From Arctopsyche grandis (Eukaryota > Arthropoda > Insecta > Trichoptera > Hydropsychidae): a stretch of 64,000 bases of DNA. The stretch lies in the NCBI RefSeq assembly GCF_051622035.1, contig NC_135359.1, forward strand, positions 15,499,501-15,563,500. The letters run 5' to 3'. Shown piece by piece: positions 2,391-62,279 of the stretch (position 1 is the stretch's first letter; the number at the start of each line of letters is the position of its first letter). The position numbers and the translations under genes were made by a program. Under the pieces are notes generated by a model, which saw only the letters and a program-made list of their open reading frames with translations, was not told the DNA's origin and did not search any database.

Positions 2391-4622
2391 ATTATCACTT
2401 TTTTTCGTATTCAAACTCAATAAGCCCAAATTAATCTACTCATTGATTATACCACTTTGATACACGGAAATTTTTAGTCAGAAAATGAACATTAATTTTT
2501 ATTAACATTTCTTTTATTAGAAGAAGAGTTCGAAATTACAATGAAAAAACCTAGATACGAGTAATTTTAAAATATTACTAAAGTTATCTTTACGTTTCGG
2601 GTATAAGCACAGGATTACCTGAATATAACTTGCTTTAGATTTTTGACTTTAAAGAGTCTTCAGTTTAAATAGTATGTATGTACATATGTATAAAATGTAT
2701 TATTAACATTTATAAGAATAGTAAATAGGTTTTTCAACTTTTTTCCTATTATTGTGTATACTGTTAGTTCTATTGATCATGCCAATTTGTTCATGAACAT
2801 ACTAGTCCGTTCATACGCGAATTATTGGTGTTTGTTTAAGTGATAACAGTCAAAAATCATCTTCAAATAGACTCAACCCATGTCGTATGAAACTTTTAGC
2901 TGTCAAAACCTTGGAGATGTCAAATAAGTATTTAAAAGGGAAATTTCACATTACAACGTTGCTAGAATTCCCGTTTCTGCAATATATTATATCTTTATAA
3001 CATTGCAACAACAATAATAAATGAAATAATACTATAAATACTAACGAGAAAAATAGTGTGTAAAATATAAAATGGTCGCTGAAACAGTAGCTATTATAAT
3101 AGACCCAAAATATATCGTGAACATACATTTTAATTTATGAACAAAATAAAAAGCATTTAAAAATCAATATCAAAAATATTACTTGAACACAAAAACTTTT
3201 AACAATACGTTGTTCAAATTTCATATTGCTGTTAACATTAGCATTGTATTCGATGCCGGAATTGAACCCGGAGACTCAAATCGATTCTTCCTGGTTGTAA
3301 GAACCGGATTTGCGACGTTCACACAGTCTCTCTCGTACTCATCTGAACAATTATCTCAACCATGTCTATTGCAAACAATCTTACCAACTATAAGAAGAAT
3401 TCCACGGTTCAAAAGTTAATGACGTTGTGCACGCGTAATGAGTCTATTAGTGACATTCTACGAATGTGTATTTCAAAATAAACGTCATAAAATAGATTCG
3501 GCAATATACATACACATGTGCATACGTATAAAATTTAATATTCCAGTTACACGTGCTTTTTTAATGCATAAAATCACGATTTTCTTCGTGTGAACAGGTA
3601 CAGAGCACTAAAAACTGTGTCACAATCGTGAATCGATAAACGCGCTATGTTTTAGTATCAGATAAACGTTTCAATGGCAAAATTCAAAATTTTCAACGAT
3701 TTTGTATGTTGCATACATTTTTTTTCTTAATATTTGAAACTTGAACAGTCAAGTTATTTCATTTCGGAATTTTAATGTCAAAACAAATCTCGTATGTGAT
3801 TCAACTGCACATATCTACTGAATTTCATACAACCGATCATTGCGAAACATTTTCGCATGCAATTCTTGCGCTGTACTGCTGCTGAGAAGGATCATGAGTG
3901 TACACATACATTCATACATACTCAGGTACACACAGGTACCATCATCTCGAGATACACCCGTCTGCAGACATAATCAATAAGAGTTTCTCTTTTACGTAAC
4001 GGCGGATGAAGATGAACCAGCAACGACCGTGGAGCAGGCTTTCCTATAACACCACCTCCGCGAACATCAATTCAAATTTATAGTGTCGAAAAAAAATTGA
4101 CAAAGGTCAAAACAAGCAAAGGATGAACTTGGTAACATTTGAAACCGTATAAAAATACATGTTTGATAGTTTTATCCTCAATAGAATGTCGTTTATACTA
4201 ATCTCACAAAAACAAATCAATATTACACCCGGCAATTTCAATGCAAATTGCAATGTAGAGATGTTATATGCAACCTTTTTAATATGAGTACGCTGATGTA
4301 TTTTAAAGGGAACGGACAATTATTTTTGAAGTCAGGCCTCATTCATTTTTCTCTAATAACATACAATTATGTTATATTTCTTAATATATTTTTTTTTTCT
4401 GCAAAATTTGAGAATTCATTACAAGACTAATAATATCCACGATAAAGAAACTTTTTTTTTTTGCTGTAAATTACTTCTTAGAGTTTTTTTATACCGGGTC
4501 AAAATGATACGAGTGCACTCAGACGGTGTCCGTTACTCAGACCGACTCGGACATTGCCACGTTAAACCTTCTCAGACCGTGTGCATACTGCAATGTATGT
4601 ACATATATTAACTTTATCGCTT
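2391..4622. other. Intergenic, no gene seen
   Basis: AT-rich DNA with no supported gene. A minus-strand GGGTTCAATTCCGG near 3258-3271 resembles a tRNA B box but lacks a convincing A box or acceptor stem. It may be a SINE remnant and is listed among the rejected items. Confidence 0.55.
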
Positions 4623-4792
4623 GATATTGAAGCTATTTTCGATATATTTTCACCGGGTCCTTTGGTATATCACAGCCACAGTTTTTGGTGCCCTTGGCAA
4701 ATATCAATAGATATTTGCCAAGGGCACCAAAAACTGTGGCTGTGATATACCAAAGGACCCGGTGAAAATATATCGAAAATAGCTTCAATATC
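4623..4792. repeat. Perfect inverted repeat: 83-bp arms, 4-nt loop
   Basis: The arms 4623-4705 and 4710-4792 are exact reverse complements over all 83 bases, separated by only AATA (4706-4709). An RNA crossing it on either strand would form a single uninterrupted 83-bp hairpin. No target-site duplication or known transposon terminus flanks it (left flank TTTATCGCTT, right flank GTATAATATT). It could be a very recent inverted duplication, a mini-foldback element, or a long-hairpin RNA locus. Perfect identity means it is young or maintained by conversion. Confidence 0.9.
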
Positions 4793-7104
4793 GTATAATA
4801 TTATTCAATATTCAATGGCGCCTCTTTATTACTGTTTTTTTACTGTATGCATAAAAACGGACAGGATGTATGTATGTGAGAGTGCATCGACAAGTATGGA
4901 GATGAAAAAAATGTTATATCGATTCCGGTTCCGGTTCCAGTTTCGATTCCGATTTCGGTTCTGATTCTGAATCCCGTCTTCTGTTCCGATTCCAGATTCC
5001 TGTTTCAGTCCTAATTTCGATTAATTATTATTTTTATTATTATTAATTATTAATTATTATTATACCTTATTATTGTAACTTCAATTTAAATCATGTATCA
5101 ACTAGTTTCCAACTCGTTGAAATTTTAACGGGCACAACACTAGTAAATTATATAGTATCAGAAATAGTAAAATAAAAAAAATATAACATAAAAATATATT
5201 TATTAAAATATAAAAATGAACAATCAAAATAAAAATATAAGAACCAAATTTAGTAAATACCACATATTGCCAATGTCGCAAAAGCTAACTATCACATTAT
5301 AAAAATTATCAATACACTTATACCCAGTGGTGGAGAGCTTAAAAATAAATGTCAGAGCACTGAACTTATCTCTCTCCCCCCCCCCTTAATTTTTTTTTTG
5401 ATTTGGCCAGTTTTGATTTTTTAAAACATTTTTATTTTTTTAAATGTTTTATGAAAGTAAAAATAAATTTATAATATAAAGGTGTATTTCCTTTTTAATT
5501 TATTTGTTATTTGTACAATGTTAGTAAAACAATGCGCCACAGGCTAAATTTTTTTTTCAAACACGTAACTTTATCAGTTTTTTTTTAATTTTGAGGATTA
5601 AAACAACGTTACCAATTAAAAAGTGTTTCTGAAAGTGATAGCTAGGTAAAAAAAATTATAATACTCTTTTATTATAGGAAACGTGAAACCAGAGCAAAAA
5701 ATTGGCAATCCTGTTTTATTTCCTCGCAAAATTCAAGCTTACAGCATCTCGAATTTGCTTATTTGTGTATTAAATGCTGCAAATTTGGCCATAGATGTCT
5801 CTATGATTGTTAATCGATGTTTTTAATTGACTTTGAATATATTTTACTGTCGTGTAAAAATAAAATAAATGTGTGGTATACATGTATAAATAAAATAAAA
5901 ATACAGCTGGCACAGGTGCGAAGATTGGTCTCATGTAAAAAGTGTTTGTTTGGTCTCCCTGCTATGCCCACTCTAGTCATTAGTTATTTTTTCGGAAATG
6001 AAACTCGGGTGTAACCAAAATTCTTCTAAATCAAAAATTCCCACACATTTCACTCGGAATCGAGCATTGTAACGATGCGTGGGTCAAATCAATAAAAATT
6101 GTCGAGAAAGGATGAGTAACCACCATATGTATAATTGGATGTTTAATGTCGAATGTTGCGTAAAAATCATAATGAATGGCAGATAATAAGGCAGTATAGT
6201 TATTTTGACAGATTGGCTCGAATTGAAATTTCACAACATTACACACGAACATACATAAATATAGGAACGTGTCGTCAGAATAGGCTAACTCCAATAAAGC
6301 GTAACACGTTAGTTGGGTGAATGTCTTCGTTACAGTTAAATGTTGTTTCATATAAATCAGTACATCATTATGTATTAAAAATAGGCCCGATGAAGGCCCC
6401 AAGCATGTACATCTCGCTATGGAACTCGAGCATAAGACAAGGACAAGAGAACGTTCTGCAATACATAGATGGACCCTCAAATGGTCATTATGGCGTTAAA
6501 CTATTTAATCGATAACGTAAACATCCGTTTTTTAATTAGACTGATTTTTTTGTCGTAAATTGGTATCTTTGTACGAGGATCCGCAATCAAAGGTCAAGGT
6601 AAAAAATGAATCTACCAGTTCTATGTAAGTATAATTTGCAGGGCTCACAAATATCAATTTCACGCATATAGTGGGTGTTGTATATTTGGCTGTAATTAGC
6701 ATATCGTTAAAAATACGCGGTAGAATAATAAAAATTGTTGCATGTAAAGTTCACGGATGTTACTGTCCATCGTTGTTTTTTTTTTCTTTCGTTACGAGAT
6801 GACTCCGTTGTTATTCACCTGAAACTTTCAAAAATGTCATGGCCATGCGTACAACTATTTGCCGAGTATTATGGGAACTGTTTTTATGGTTTATTTGTGA
6901 GTAGCCTGTGGGGTATTCGAATCGCCAACACAATTGATGTGATTCATAATGTGTTGGATCATTTCAACATGTACGAAACATGATTTAACGTCACCCATTT
7001 GATGAATACATGGGTGTGCTTAAAAAAAAATTTACGTGAAATTAAAATTTGATAGTCAACAAGCTTCCATAGGAACCATTTAATATGTAAGTGTGGTCGA
7101 ATAT
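4793..7104. other. Intergenic with simple repeats and a SINE relic
   Basis: 4918-5015 is a degenerate GATTCCGGTTCC-like simple repeat. Around 5690-5875 there are fragments shared with the SINE family described at 23647 (a TTGGCAATCCTG-like core piece, a CATAGATGTCTCTATGATT-like block and an AAAATAAAATAAA tail). The longest open frame (6031-6480, minus) has no recognisable domain. No gene is supported. Confidence 0.5.
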
Positions 7105-13675: not shown

Positions 13676-15907
13676 ATGAGTGGCAGCAAGGCAAGAGTTT
13701 TCGTAATCGGGGTGGGAATGACGAAATTCGAGAAACCAGGATCTCGAGACTGGGACTATCCTGATATGGGAGAAGAAGCTGCCAGAGCAGCTTTAGCTGA
13801 TGCGTCATTGTCATACTCTTCCGTACAACAAGCTACTGTTGGTTACGTCTATGGAGACTCCACCTGTGGACAAAGATGCCTGTACCAGCTCGGTATGACT
13901 GCCATTCCTGTGTTCAATGTCAACAACAACTGCTCCACTGGAGCCTCTGCCCTATTCCTAGCTAAACAGATTATACAGTCCGGCAACGCTGACTGCGTAC
14001 TTGCCCTCGGATTCGAGAAAATGGAAAAAGGCTCACTTTCATCCAAATTCATGGACCGCACCAATCCCCTCGACAAGCACGTCGAGAAGATGATCGATAA
14101 CGCCGGCATAGACGGCTCTCCCATAGCCGCCCAACTCTTCGGCAATGCCGGCAAAGAGCATATGAAGCAATACGGTACTACTGAAGCCCACTTCGCCAAA
14201 ATCGCCCAAAAGAATCACAAACATTCCGCCAACAACCCCAAATCCCAATTCAGAGACGTCTACACCTTGGAACAAATCTTAAAGTCTCCACGAGTCTTTG
14301 GCCCACTTACAAAATTACAATGCTGTCCAACTAGCGAAGGTGCCGCTGCCGCTATTGTAGTAAGCGAAGCATTCGTACTTAAACACGGATTACAATCCCG
14401 CGCCGTTGAAATAATGGGAATGGAAATGGCAACAGATCCCGCTTCGTCTCTTTCAGACAGCTCTATCAAAGTAGTAGGATCCGATATGACAGCTTTGGCT
14501 ACGAGGCGTCTCCTTCAAAACACCGGAATTACCATTGATCAAGTGAACGTGATCGAATTGCATGATTGCTTCTCCGCAAACGAACTCATTACATACGAAG
14601 CTTTGGGATTGTGTCCAGAAGGACAAGCTGGCAAATTCATCGATGCGGGTGACAATACGTACGGAGGTAAATTCGTTGTAAATCCTAGCGGTGGTCTCAT
14701 TTCTAAGGGTCACCCACTCGGTGCTACTGGATTGGCTCAATGTGCCGAGTTGGTTTGGCAAGTGAGGGGCGAAGCTGGACCCAGACAGGTTAATTAATCA
14801 AAACATTCTATTTGTATTCATAAATTCATAAATTTATAAATTCAAATCGCCATTATGAAAATTAATACAAAATACATTCGACATATGTACATATTCTCAA
14901 TTCTACTACTACTAAATAATTTGCTCATTTTGCATTTAATAAACATTGAATGACTCAATATAAACGAACAATAAACAGTTTAATCTGACATACATACTGT
15001 ACAAAAAAATTGGAATTATCTTGGTTTGAAACTATTTTTGAACCATAAGACATAAGACACTTGATAACCAAAATATAAAAAATATAATACAAAAAATATT
15101 TATATTAAAACTGCAAAAAACAATTAACGTAGGAATGTTTTTCATTACATCAATCAAATTTTATCTTTCAATCTTATTTTCATTATTAAAAGAAGATTAA
15201 ATCGTTTTTATATCTACTTAAATTCACTTTTTGTTCAATATTTTCAGATAATTATTTGCAAGATAATAAGATGAGAACAAAAACTTAATTTCAATCCTAA
15301 ATACACTTTGAAGTTTGATCTTGTGCCTTATCATGACTTTTTAAAATATGTTTTATATTACACGAGTATGAATTTTTTTGAATCTAAGATACTATTGTAT
15401 TTTTTTCAGGTACCGGGGGCTCGTATTGGACTGCAACACAATTTGGGATTGGGAGGAGCAGTTGTGGTGGCCCTTTACAAAATGGGATTCCCAGCAGTTG
15501 CACGTAACAAACTATCGACTTCATCAACGGAAGGCTTCAAAGTTCATAAATATATGATAGTCCTAGAACAAGTAATGCAAGAAGATCAAGAGAATCTAAT
15601 AGAGAAAGTAAGAGGTATATATGGATTCAGAGTAAGGAATGGACCCGGAGGTGCCGAAGCCTACTGGGTAATAAACGCTAAAACTGGAAAAGGCAGTATC
15701 AAAATAAACGGAACTGAAAAGCCCGAAGTCACATTTACAGTAAATGATGACGACGTCGTTGAATTAATCTCTGGAAAATTGAACCCACAGAAAGCATTCT
15801 TCCAGGGTAAAATTAAAGTCCAAGGTAACATGGGTTTGGCATTGAAATTGACTGAACTGTTAAATATTGCCGGACATAGAATAGCTGAAATACGTTCCAA
15901 ACTATAA
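13676..15907 (+). CDS. ScpX: Sterol carrier protein X (3-ketoacyl-CoA thiolase fused to SCP2)
   Basis: Exons 13676-14788 and 15410-15907 flank a 621-bp phase-0 intron (donor GTTAAT, acceptor TTTTTTCAG), giving 536 residues, the normal SCPx length. Residues 1-400 are thiolase-like: nucleophile Cys86 in [16 protein letters not shown] around His296, and KGHPLGATG around His346. Residues about 408-536 are the SCP2 sterol/lipid-binding domain. The C terminus is SKL, a type 1 peroxisomal targeting signal. SCPx enzymes thiolytically cleave branched-chain 3-oxoacyl-CoAs in peroxisomes, and in insects SCPx/SCP2 takes part in cholesterol uptake and traffic. I chose ATG 13676 (AAAATGAG) because only a TTG lies upstream in frame and the family begins just before VIGVGMTKF. 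Upstream non-coding exons cannot be excluded. An AATAAA follows 88 nt after the stop. It is convergent with the Snoo-like gene. Confidence 0.95.
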
Positions 15908-54429: not shown

Positions 54430-56730
54430 TTAATGTGGGACGTTATGAACGTTCGCCACACCGTTGCACAAATTCACTGAGTGCTGCTCGACTGGCAGTC
54501 GAGCTACTCGCCGGACTGCTCGCTTGGTGTTGCTGATGGAGGAGTAGTAGGACCTACTCCTGTGCCCCTGTCTGCCAGGGGCCGCTGCTGCATGTGCTGG
54601 TGTGGTAGCACCCTCGCTCCGGGTTGATCGACCAGATCCTCCTGCTGTTGCGCAACTAGTGGTGCGCCAACTAGGAACTGGCCAGGAGTTATGGGAGCTG
54701 GGTTGGGAAGGTCGAAAGATGTGAGGGTTAAAGGGCGCGGGTACATTGCGCTTCGGCAAGCGGAATCTTCGTTCCGCGTAAATACGCGATTCGTCCAGGG
54801 GACGCGTAACTGTCTTGACTGGACGTCTCGCGCCAAAACAAGATAACGGATCACGACCCGTTGTGTGATGGCAATTCCGAGAATCGCTTGAAACTGTGGG
54901 CGCTTCTAGAGAGCCGCCCAATATCCAGCCGAAAGCTGTATTCATCATCGCGATGCGTCCTCCTCTGTCACCGCGTGACTTGGAGGGAACTAAAATGGTA
55001 CGTTTGCCATTGCGTAACATCGCATGATAGGCGTCGCTGCCTATCACCATATCCACTGTACCGGGAATATCGAATGACGGATCGGCAAGGGGGAGATGAA
55101 GCGGCAAATGGCTCCGAATCTCGGACACGTTGCGCGATGGAAGTTGATTCGCGATCTCGGGCATGATTGCGCAATCGAGATCAACACTGGAGCCCTGATT
55201 GGGGATGCGCGGTAGAATTCGAATTACCGCGCCACTAGTAATGGACGTCCTATTTGAACCTATTCCTACCAGGTTGACGTCCATCCTTTTCGACTTTAAG
55301 GCGAGTCGCCTTCTTAAGTCTTCAGAGATGAGGTTGAGTTCGGAGCCGTTATCTAACAATGCTCGAACCTTGTGCGAACGCCCATCTCCGCCGCGAACTT
55401 GTACTTCCACGGTGGATAATAGGACAGTTCGGGCGTGAGAAGGCGATACGCGTCTCACCGAGTGTAAAACCAACGATGATTTTACGGGTTTGGCGTTCTC
55501 TGATTTCTTGGGGCTCCGATAATGTTTGGCCTTATTTGAAGGCGAAGTTTGGTATGGAGTTGAGTCATGTAACATGGTGTGATGGGCATGACCGCATTTG
55601 AAGCATCTCTGCTTTGTTTGGCACGCGTGAACTATGTGCCCTGGCCTCAAGCAGTTGAGACATAGTCGACGTTTTATGGCGTTCGACCTACGCTCATCAC
55701 CGCTCATTTGGCGGAATGATGGACAGGCTAGCAGAGAATGACTTCCGCTGCAACTGATGCAGGAGGGGCGTTCCCTCCTCACATGCAGAACTGCTGCCTT
55801 CGGATTCGTAATGGTTCTTGGTCGAGGATTCGACTCGCCTTTTAAGACGAAGTCGGCATTTGCCATCGATTGGCACTGGCACGTTAGAAAATGCATTATT
55901 TTGCTAAACGTGCAGTCTTCATACTTGGGAGTCTGAAGCTCCCATTGCAGAAGTGTACTCCGGTCGAGTTTTCTGGTGATAAACATCACCAGAATCTCGT
56001 TCCAGGTCTCGACCCGGACGCCCAAGTTAACGAGCGCACGTACATGCATGTTGGCATCATCTATGAGACGACGCAGACTGACGTGATTGTTGCTCACGAC
56101 TGGCTCGGCTTCAAGCAATGCCTGAAGGTGATACTGAACAACAATTTTTTTGTTGTTATAGCGTTGATCCAAAATGGACCACGCGCTCGTAAATGAATCT
56201 GAAGCTAATTCCAAGCCGTCAACTAAACGTTGGGGCTCTCCTTTTAGGCTTCCTAGTAAGTATTGGAACCGGGCGATTTGCGAACTCTCGCCGGCCATAG
56301 CGGCCAAGAAGCGTTGTGAAAAAAGCGGCCAATTTTGGACGTTGCCTTCGAAGGTGGGCAACTCCAAACGGGGCAATTTTATTGCCGAATTTGATTGCGG
56401 TACAGGTGACATTGTGAGGTTAGCGCCATCTAACGGTGAAGCGCTCAATTGCGGCTCACGCAAATTGATTGCTTCGGTGCATCGCACGAAGGCGGCCATA
56501 TGCTCCCTATCAAATAGGTCCACGACGGATTCGGAGGCCTGCGCCTCTTCTTGGTCCAGCTCGTTTATCTGAGCTTGGATCGCTTCGAATTCAGACAGTA
56601 ATGGTCTGATTGTTTCGAGCCTGATTCTGAGCTCGAAGATGCTCAGATCGTCCCCCAATTGATTCGCGTTTCTCGTTAACCGAGCGCGAATTCTTTTCCG
56701 CGTATTTTTAAGCGTACTCAAAGACGCCAT
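54430..56730 (-). CDS. BEL/Pao gag-protease polyprotein, truncated pol
   Basis: 766 residues from ATG 56730. Order: an N-terminal helical region; DUF1759-type gag core (about residues 118-290, LPRLELPTFEGNVQNWPLF onward); a Cys/His zinc-knuckle region (CISCSGSH, CLNCLRPGHIVHAC and CFKCGHAHHTMLH motifs, about 320-385); a retropepsin-like protease with active-site LLDNGSELN (about 460) and VIGSDAYH. The last ~120 residues are Ser/Arg-rich and read the wrong frame of integrase-end DNA: in another minus frame (54504-54854) the BEL-typical PITPGQFLVG motif appears. This places a deletion junction upstream of that motif, removing reverse transcriptase, RNase H and most of integrase. The gag-protease part is intact and free of stops. 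Confidence 0.9.
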   Translation of the reverse strand: MASLSTLKNTRKRIRARLTRNANQLGDDLSIFELRIRLETIRPLLSEFEAIQAQINELDQEEAQASESVVDLFDREHMAAFVRCTEAINLREPQLSASPLDGANLTMSPVPQSNSAIKLPRLELPTFEGNVQNWPLFSQRFLAAMAGESSQIARFQYLLGSLKGEPQRLVDGLELASDSFTSAWSILDQRYNNKKIVVQYHLQALLEAEPVVSNNHVSLRRLIDDANMHVRALVNLGVRVETWNEILVMFITRKLDRSTLLQWELQTPKYEDCTFSKIMHFLTCQCQSMANADFVLKGESNPRPRTITNPKAAVLHVRRERPSCISCSGSHSLLACPSFRQMSGDERRSNAIKRRLCLNCLRPGHIVHACQTKQRCFKCGHAHHTMLHDSTPYQTSPSNKAKHYRSPKKSENAKPVKSSLVLHSVRRVSPSHARTVLLSTVEVQVRGGDGRSHKVRALLDNGSELNLISEDLRRRLALKSKRMDVNLVGIGSNRTSITSGAVIRILPRIPNQGSSVDLDCAIMPEIANQLPSRNVSEIRSHLPLHLPLADPSFDIPGTVDMVIGSDAYHAMLRNGKRTILVPSKSRGDRGGRIAMMNTAFGWILGGSLEAPTVSSDSRNCHHTTGRDPLSCFGARRPVKTVTRPLDESRIYAERRFRLPKRNVPAPFNPHIFRPSQPSSHNSWPVPSWRTTSCATAGGSGRSTRSEGATTPAHAAAAPGRQGHRSRSYYSSISNTKRAVRRVARLPVEQHSVNLCNGVANVHNVPH

Positions 56731-56905
56731 TATTGAAATGCGACGAAATCAAACAAAGGAAAAAATGGACGCGGGAAAAAACAAAATGGACGTTGACGAC
56801 CAAAAAAAATAGCAACAACAACAGAAAAATGCTAATTACGACCAACCTGGATTCGACGACGTTGGAAGACCAGCTCTGAAGACATACGGAATCGAAGGAC
56901 CAAAA

Positions 56906-61066: not shown

Positions 61067-61840
61067 AATTTTGTTATTATCTAATCAATTTGGTAATGGA
61101 AACAATTTGCAACACATAATGCCAAAATATGCATTGGATATAATATTATAATTAGTCATAAAACATGTAAATATGTAAAATCGTTAAAAAATTAAATGAA
61201 TACGATAAATTTTTCTATATGTGTACACGTTTTACTCTTTTGATTTACTAATTGTTGTTAAGCATACAATAACATGAATGTCTCTGAAAACAATGTTTTA
61301 AACAAATATCCAACATATTTTGAATTAATATATGTATTGTAATATGCACTTAGTTAGGTATAAAAGTTTTTGGCCCAAGGATATTAAACAGATAATACAA
61401 TCAAACAAAAATTTTCAATTTTCAATATAAGCACCTATTTGATATATTTTTATAATCACCAGTCAATTTTTCTATACATTTTTTTTAAATTAGTCTTAAA
61501 TTGCAGATTTTTTCCCCACATAATGTGGTTTCAATTTTGAAAATAAAATAAATTGTCATTAAGACTTTCAAAAGATGGTGGCTAGAAACTTTTGGATCTT
61601 ACTACATATACGGAAATATAATTTAGTTGCCGAACACATACCTAAATCACATTCACTGTGATGCGTGCTAAATAAAGATATCTAAACGCAATGTGAAACA
61701 TAATTTGAAATAGTTTTTTCATTATACATATTTATATCATTCAAAAATCTTCGGGAATTACTGCTTCATACATATTTATTTTCAAAAATTCCATTATTAA
61801 TGTTCAATATTTCAAATATATATATGTATATATATATATT
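61067..61840. other. Intergenic, no gene seen
   Basis: AT-rich flank of the small gene. Contains AATAAA-type sequences (for example near 61545 and 61671) but no further coding sequence recognised. Confidence 0.5.
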
Positions 61841-62228
61841 CGGTCTCCGTGACGGGCCTGAATGTGAAACGCCCGAAAACGCAAATATCGGAAGGCAAAG
61901 ATCGAAAATCGAAAGATCTTAAGTCGAAAGATCAAAAAAAAGGGTGCATGGTAAACGGTACATACTCTCGTATATACTCACTTAATTTGCGCGAGCAGGA
62001 TAGAACAGGAACAAGAGGAACAGGCTTTTCCTCCCGTATTAATGTGCGCGCACAGAATATGGTAGGAAAAGCCTGTTCCTCTTGTTCCTGTTGTATCCTG
62101 CTCGCGCAAATTAAGTGAGTATGTACCGTTTACCATGCACCCTTTTTTTTGATCTTTCGATTTTCGATCTTTGCCTTCCGATATTTGCGATTTCGGGCGT
62201 ATCACATTCGGGCCCCTGAGGTAGACCC
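61841..62228. mobile_element. Mutator-like MITE, near-complete palindrome
   Basis: 388 bp, starts CGGTCTCCGTGACGGGCC and ends GGGCCCCTGAGGTAGACCC. The two arms (about 61841-62030 and 62040-62228) are inverted copies, so overlapping frames on opposite strands encode near-identical peptides. Perfect 9-bp duplication ATATATATT (61832-61840, 62229-62237). Same family as 59630-60235 and 12226-12525 but lacking the long loop. Confidence 0.88.
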
Positions 62229-62279
62229 ATATATATTATGTATGACATTATAATGTATGTATATACAACAGCATAAAAT

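Follow-up and report, generated by a model that had tools for sequence, protein, structure and literature searches.

A perfect 83-base-arm hairpin in the Arctopsyche grandis genome, probably the scar of a single template-switch or fold-back copying error in repeat-derived DNA

Fold-back inverted duplications are usually large terminal duplications. Fold-back priming has been proposed for inverted duplications at double-strand breaks (PMC10622511), and template switching is described by Monttinen and Loytynoja as creating inverted repeats, with perfect stems formed in one event (PMC8794818). For great apes, 1503 template-switch events are reported, the reversed segment having a median length of 12 and a maximum of 128 bases (PMC7954356). 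Here we describe a perfect hairpin in a 64,000-nucleotide stretch of the Arctopsyche grandis assembly (C5:15499501-15563500, hereafter the window). It resembles the template-switch mutations of these reports (PMC8794818, PMC7954356) in that a neighbouring stretch appears to have been reverse-copied once, so that sequence was gained and a perfect inverted repeat formed; its 83 bases lie in the far tail of the great-ape lengths, and it carries a 13-base filler as well. Compared with a fold-back inverted duplication, synthesis here would have rejoined the original sequence after 83 bases. The Drosophila hpRNA loci described in PMC10317233 are likewise inverted repeats with arms that resemble a possible target, transposable elements included, but they are defined there by Dicer-2-dependent RNAs of about 21 nt and a primary transcript, whereas the hairpin here was identified by its sequence and has arms made of two repeats. 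With MITEs it shares the inverted-repeat structure of repetitive DNA, although we found no hairpin family with shared ends and the arms straddle two families. Most probably, the hairpin is a scar left in non-coding DNA of repeat origin by a single copying error, a template switch or a fold-back, with synthesis returning to the second repeat close to its point of departure.

An earlier note, made from the letters of the window, had pointed to a perfect hairpin with 83-bp arms and a 4-nt loop. This hairpin is real: every one of the 83 bases of the left arm finds its complement, in inverted orientation, in the right arm around AATA (Table 1). RNA folding of 4600-4815 yields -154.5 kcal/mol, against a mean of -39.9 for shuffled sequences (sd 4.23, z -27), and none of 200 shuffles matches it; an origin of the hairpin by chance is excluded. 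Among perfect hairpins in the window with loops below 60 bases it is the longest, the next-longest having AT-microsatellite arms of at most 45 bases. The same note had found no flanking duplication, and the sequences bordering the arms, TTTATCGCTT on the left and GTATAATATT on the right, indeed hold no direct repeat. An imperfect direct repeat with 9 of 10 bases matching (AATATCAAT at 4700-4708 and AATATTCAAT at 4807-4816) has one copy inside arm and loop, and is read as part of the second repeat, family B, itself. No stop-to-stop open reading frame (ORF) of at least 110 aa runs over the hairpin; the nearest ORF, at 6031-6495 on the minus strand, is without a Pfam match.

Table 1. Features of the hairpin locus, in window coordinates
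Feature	Position	Strand	Basis or remark
Family A, 5' part; its last 53 bases form the outer left arm	4557..about 4675	+	Genome search and alignment of fetched loci
Left arm, read as the original (source); spans the A-B junction	4623..4705	+	Perfect complement of 4710-4792; collinear with A upstream and B inside
Family B, first part (positions 0-27), including loop bases AAT	4681..4708 (B from about 4678)	+	L062, L060, 27-mer search
Loop AATA	4706..4709		AAT still reads as family B
Right arm, read as inverted copy of 4623-4705, inside B	4710..4792	-	Same three A-copy-distinguishing bases as the left arm (left-arm positions 4644, 4658, 4664)
8-base repeat TTCAATAT	4784-4791 (right-arm end) and 4804-4811 (B resumption)		Candidate microhomology of the return jump
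13-base filler GTATAATATTATT between right arm and resumed B	4793..4805		Without a B hit at E up to 0.01
Family B, apparently resuming (about positions 19-74)	4807..4857	+	Forced local alignments; L063 best among the matches listed
Third dispersed repeat, interrupting B	4851..5165 (borders approximate, the far one inferred)		Genome search of 4793-5000
Family B again (positions about 55-220), AT-rich	5172..5320	+	L065 86% over 70 bases; L063 89% over 57; others weaker or shorter

The arms consist of parts of two dispersed repeats, for which we coined the labels family A (outer arm) and family B (inner arm). A search of the assembly (475.67 Mb, 189 contigs) with 4600-4815 returned 72 matches including the locus itself (40 scored of 49 candidates). 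The other matches cover the left part of the query, to about 4675, at 80-91% identity, and reach up to 93% where the same A stretch is read via the right arm; left- and right-arm matches coincide at the places that have both, so each such place holds one copy. In the 20 family A loci that were fetched (L009-L028), every match starts upstream of the arm, at 4557-4608. Sixteen of them (L016 included) remain alike far beyond CACAG, to go by their matches to L016; L009, L015, L026 and L028, together with the window, have no shared continuation beyond it. With eight of the 20 loci as queries, family A was not found to resume beyond B anywhere in the window, their matches being confined to the left arm with flank, to the right arm and to a 35-base stretch at 15071-15101. 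Upstream of the left arm the A sequence goes on, and downstream of the right arm none was found, which is why we read the left arm as the original. No terminal inverted repeat common to the 20 A loci appears among the first four matches listed per locus, and several of these loci, L009, L013, L023 and L026 among them, have other inverted repeats elsewhere.

The inner arm and part of the loop belong to family B. Window positions 4681-4708 are identical to L062 at 28 of 28 bases, and the identity runs through 4708, so that three loop bases belong to B; 4708-4734 agree with L060 at 27 of 27. Apart from the two arms, a 24-base probe allowing 3 mismatches hit C3:24509091, where the exact match extends over 27 bases. 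The 27-mer GTTTTTGGTGCCCTTGGCAAATATCTA has 105 genome matches at up to 3 mismatches (58 forward and 47 reverse, the two arms of the window included), while its reversed control has none. We read 21 family B loci, namely 20 of these matches plus L060; after ATATC all 21 continue with AA or TAA, the majority with a variant of TTTGGCGCCCC.

In the searches made, the two families meet at this locus only. The stretch holding junction and loop, 4664-4751, has itself as its sole genome match; none of the 20 A loci contains a match to the B motif, and the 21 B loci contain a single 18-base match to A (E 0.004; L060 2289-2306), which does not lie beside B. Across the 41 loci (20 A, 21 B) the A or B part of the arm is present once per locus, and its inverted partner in none. 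The view that no known repeat explains the hairpin therefore stands for 4664-4751 and fails for the outer and inner parts of the arms, which come from two dispersed repeats. In 4623-4675, three window positions (4644, 4658 and 4664) depart from the majority base of the 20 A copies, the other copies having 1-10 differences from the majority over these 53 bases. Of the 20 A loci, 1 (L023), 0 and 1 (L028) have the window's base at these respective positions, and none has two of them. As the arms are identical, both carry these three A-rare bases as well as the A-B junction, which indicates that the left arm served, in place, as the template for the right. On this evidence, an event in place is the best reading.

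The same observations bear on a transposon reading, in which the hairpin would be a transposon with long terminal inverted repeats (a MITE or a fold-back element), or one repeat inserted twice in opposite orientations. The dispersed-repeat matches of both arms would suit it, but the arms are parts of two families with a junction found only at this locus, the A-rare bases are common to both, and the partner arm is missing from 20 of 20 A and 21 of 21 B loci. Copies of a MITE with shared terminal inverted repeats were not found (4664-4751 matches only itself, and none of the 41 loci has the arm part on both strands), nor was a target-site duplication outside the inverted repeats (TTTATCGCTT against GTATAATATT). 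The earlier suggestion that this is not an ordinary MITE is borne out, a search for further copies of the hairpin, sharing ends and flanked by target duplications, having found none, even though the arm sequence itself is repetitive. We rejected the MITE and the twin insertion, which we consider extremely improbable, because the arms straddle two families and the junction is seen only here. Inversions inside retroelements commonly arise by twin priming. Such a 5' inversion during a putative retrotransposition of B has practically no probability here, as the inverted stretch includes A and the A-B junction, A lies beside B in none of the B loci read, and B stands in direct orientation on both sides; we rejected it because A lies within the inverted stretch.

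On the right side, B is interrupted after 4708 and seems to continue from about 4807; the right arm together with the 13-base filler thus reads as an insertion in B. We scripted three joins of the flanks against the 21 B loci. First, joining 4705 to 4806 lets 13 of the 21 loci align through (L063 best, 80 bases, 77.5%, E 3.8e-12), the remaining eight giving no through-alignment. Second, joining 4701 to 4808 carries 17 through and leaves four without. Lastly, with the filler kept (4705 to 4793), no alignment extends as far as the B stretch beyond; that with L071 stops 6 bases after the join. The right stretch alone, in a plain search at E up to 0.01, is recognised by one of the 21 B loci (L063, 4816-4857, 78%, E 0.003). 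As a control for the forced local alignments, we scored 5046 slices from elsewhere in the window; the best score is attained by 18 of them and the mean of the ten best scores by 6. The apparent resumption of B beyond the right arm is thus well supported but weaker, the stretch there being modestly B-like in these alignments. The 8-base repeat TTCAATAT could have guided the return jump; a comparable repeat is present at 156 of 9115 control points (1.7%), which makes this microhomology suggestive only. Around it, 4784-4803 and 4796-4815 form an 85% palindrome.

Further downstream, the third repeat has 42 matches besides itself, 41 of which start at 4833-4869 or 4915-4921, and it carries a degenerate 12-base tandem stretch, TCGATTCCGGTT, at 4919-4961. 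In the B stretch beyond it (5172-5320), L076 and L074 match at 68-71% with the low-complexity filter on.

Taken as a test of template switching, the locus gives three results. The inverted copy is adjacent to its source and identical to it (83/83, 4-base loop). The copy comes from this very locus, the junction being seen only here and the distinguishing bases in 1, 0 and 1 of 20 A loci. The original appears to resume after the copy, with B positions 0-27 before it and about 19-74 after it (6-18 of 5046 control slices score as well, and the right stretch alone finds 1 of 21 B loci). We postulate that B at first adjoined, or lay inside, an old copy of A. The strand through A into B would have been copied as far as the B sequence ...GGCAAATATCAAT (AAATATCAAT), whereupon the new strand would have folded back on itself or switched to the complementary strand, and the preceding 83 bases would have been copied in reverse, across the A-B junction, to 4623. 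Synthesis would then have gone back to the original template, at the departure point or a few bases upstream, and the outcome would be a perfect inverted copy plus the 13-base filler inserted within B. From the relatives of B we infer a state before the insertion, in which B would have read about GGCAAATATC running straight into GGCGCC; we likewise infer that a polymerase switched templates, whether at a fork or in break repair, and where exactly it jumped. A single clean switch leaves the filler unexplained, and it may represent a second small slip. A very similar scar would result if a broken end were repaired by fold-back.

A fold-back read folded into the contig would also give a perfect palindrome, and fold-back artefacts do occur in long reads (PMC12870357). 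Such a read would, however, be expected to mirror the sequence back to the start of the read rather than to rejoin B after 83 bases and a filler, and we regard an assembly or read artefact as highly improbable.

The identity of the arms had previously been taken to imply a very recent event, gene conversion or selection on the structure. Zero differences over 83 pairs place the divergence below 3.5% (95% upper bound). The germline mutation rate of insects is near 3e-9 per site per generation, and at this rate the bound allows up to roughly 6 million generations without selection or conversion. A very recent event is consequently not forced, and perfect identity is weak evidence for selection. 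Selection on the structure is unsupported, since 83 identical bases need neither selection nor conversion, and there is no need to assume a function for the hairpin. That an old palindrome had its arms homogenised by gene conversion is very unlikely: it would account for the perfect arms, and template switching reportedly converts inverted repeats from near-perfect to perfect (PMC7954356), but it is not required for 83 identical bases and the locus has no sign of great age.

A reading that would give the hairpin a function is that of an hpRNA gene, which would be transcribed and have its 83-bp duplex cut by Dicer-2 into 21-22-nt siRNAs silencing A and B, the arms being kept alike by selection or conversion. 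The fold is very stable, and hpRNAs with arms homologous to a transposable element are known in Drosophila simulans (PMC10317233). Of the 63 21-mers of the arm, one is found exactly in 4 of the 20 A loci and five are found exactly in 2-3 of the 21 B loci; yet these six are the only ones with an exact match to any of the 41 repeat loci read, no Rfam family reaches its gathering threshold within the window, and identity over 83 bases is possible without selection. We hold an hpRNA gene to be very improbable. A newborn hairpin RNA gene, in which one copying error had fused two repeat fragments into a perfect stem with putative 21-nt products acting on both families, would be a very unlikely outcome of the same event. 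As a copying scar the locus has an interest of its own, because the borders of two repeat families allow source, copy and interrupted sequence to be told apart. It would illustrate in detail how a long perfect stem, from which microRNA or siRNA genes can be made, can form in one step without selection; new microRNAs have reportedly arisen from template switching. The implication is one of caution, as perfect identity of arms should not be read as evidence of function.

Other palindromes were noted in the course of the analysis. In L009 (C13:18435700-18437000), from GTATATCACAG of family A onward, the sequence forms a palindrome of its own, GTATATCACAGTATAC-T-GTATACTGTGATATAC, with 16-base arms and a single T between them, situated where the window copy leaves family A; this departure point may be a hot spot of small template switching. 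For a base rate we sampled 20 stretches of 10 kb (200 kb; 264 kb with the window), setting aside 2913 low-complexity matches. Three perfect hairpins with arms of at least 60 bases and loops up to 300 were present in the 264 kb: one in L050 (arms of 146, loop 0), that of the window (83, loop 4) and one in L046 (65, loop 55), which are too few for a rate. The L050 palindrome (L050:1780-2071, in C3:16000001-16010000), with no loop between its 146-base arms, is the sole one of its kind in the 20 stretches. About half of it is AT repeat, with an AT core, an outer part that looks non-repetitive and an AT repeat just outside on the right. Together with the small palindrome of L009, it suggests that perfect fold-back scars may not be rare in this genome.

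Imperfect palindromic elements with arms that share AATTTGCGCGAGCAGGATA lie at 61832-62236 of the window, at L041:9320-9723 and at L040:3332-3488, and apparently constitute one hairpin-type repeat family. As for coding content, five of the seven window ORFs searched against Pfam have a match (thiolase, Ski/Sno with a c-SKI Smad-binding domain, reverse transcriptase, DUF1759 and short-chain dehydrogenase). The ORF with DUF1759, which we take to be a domain of BEL/Pao-type retroelements, encodes 772 aa on the minus strand at 54430-56748.
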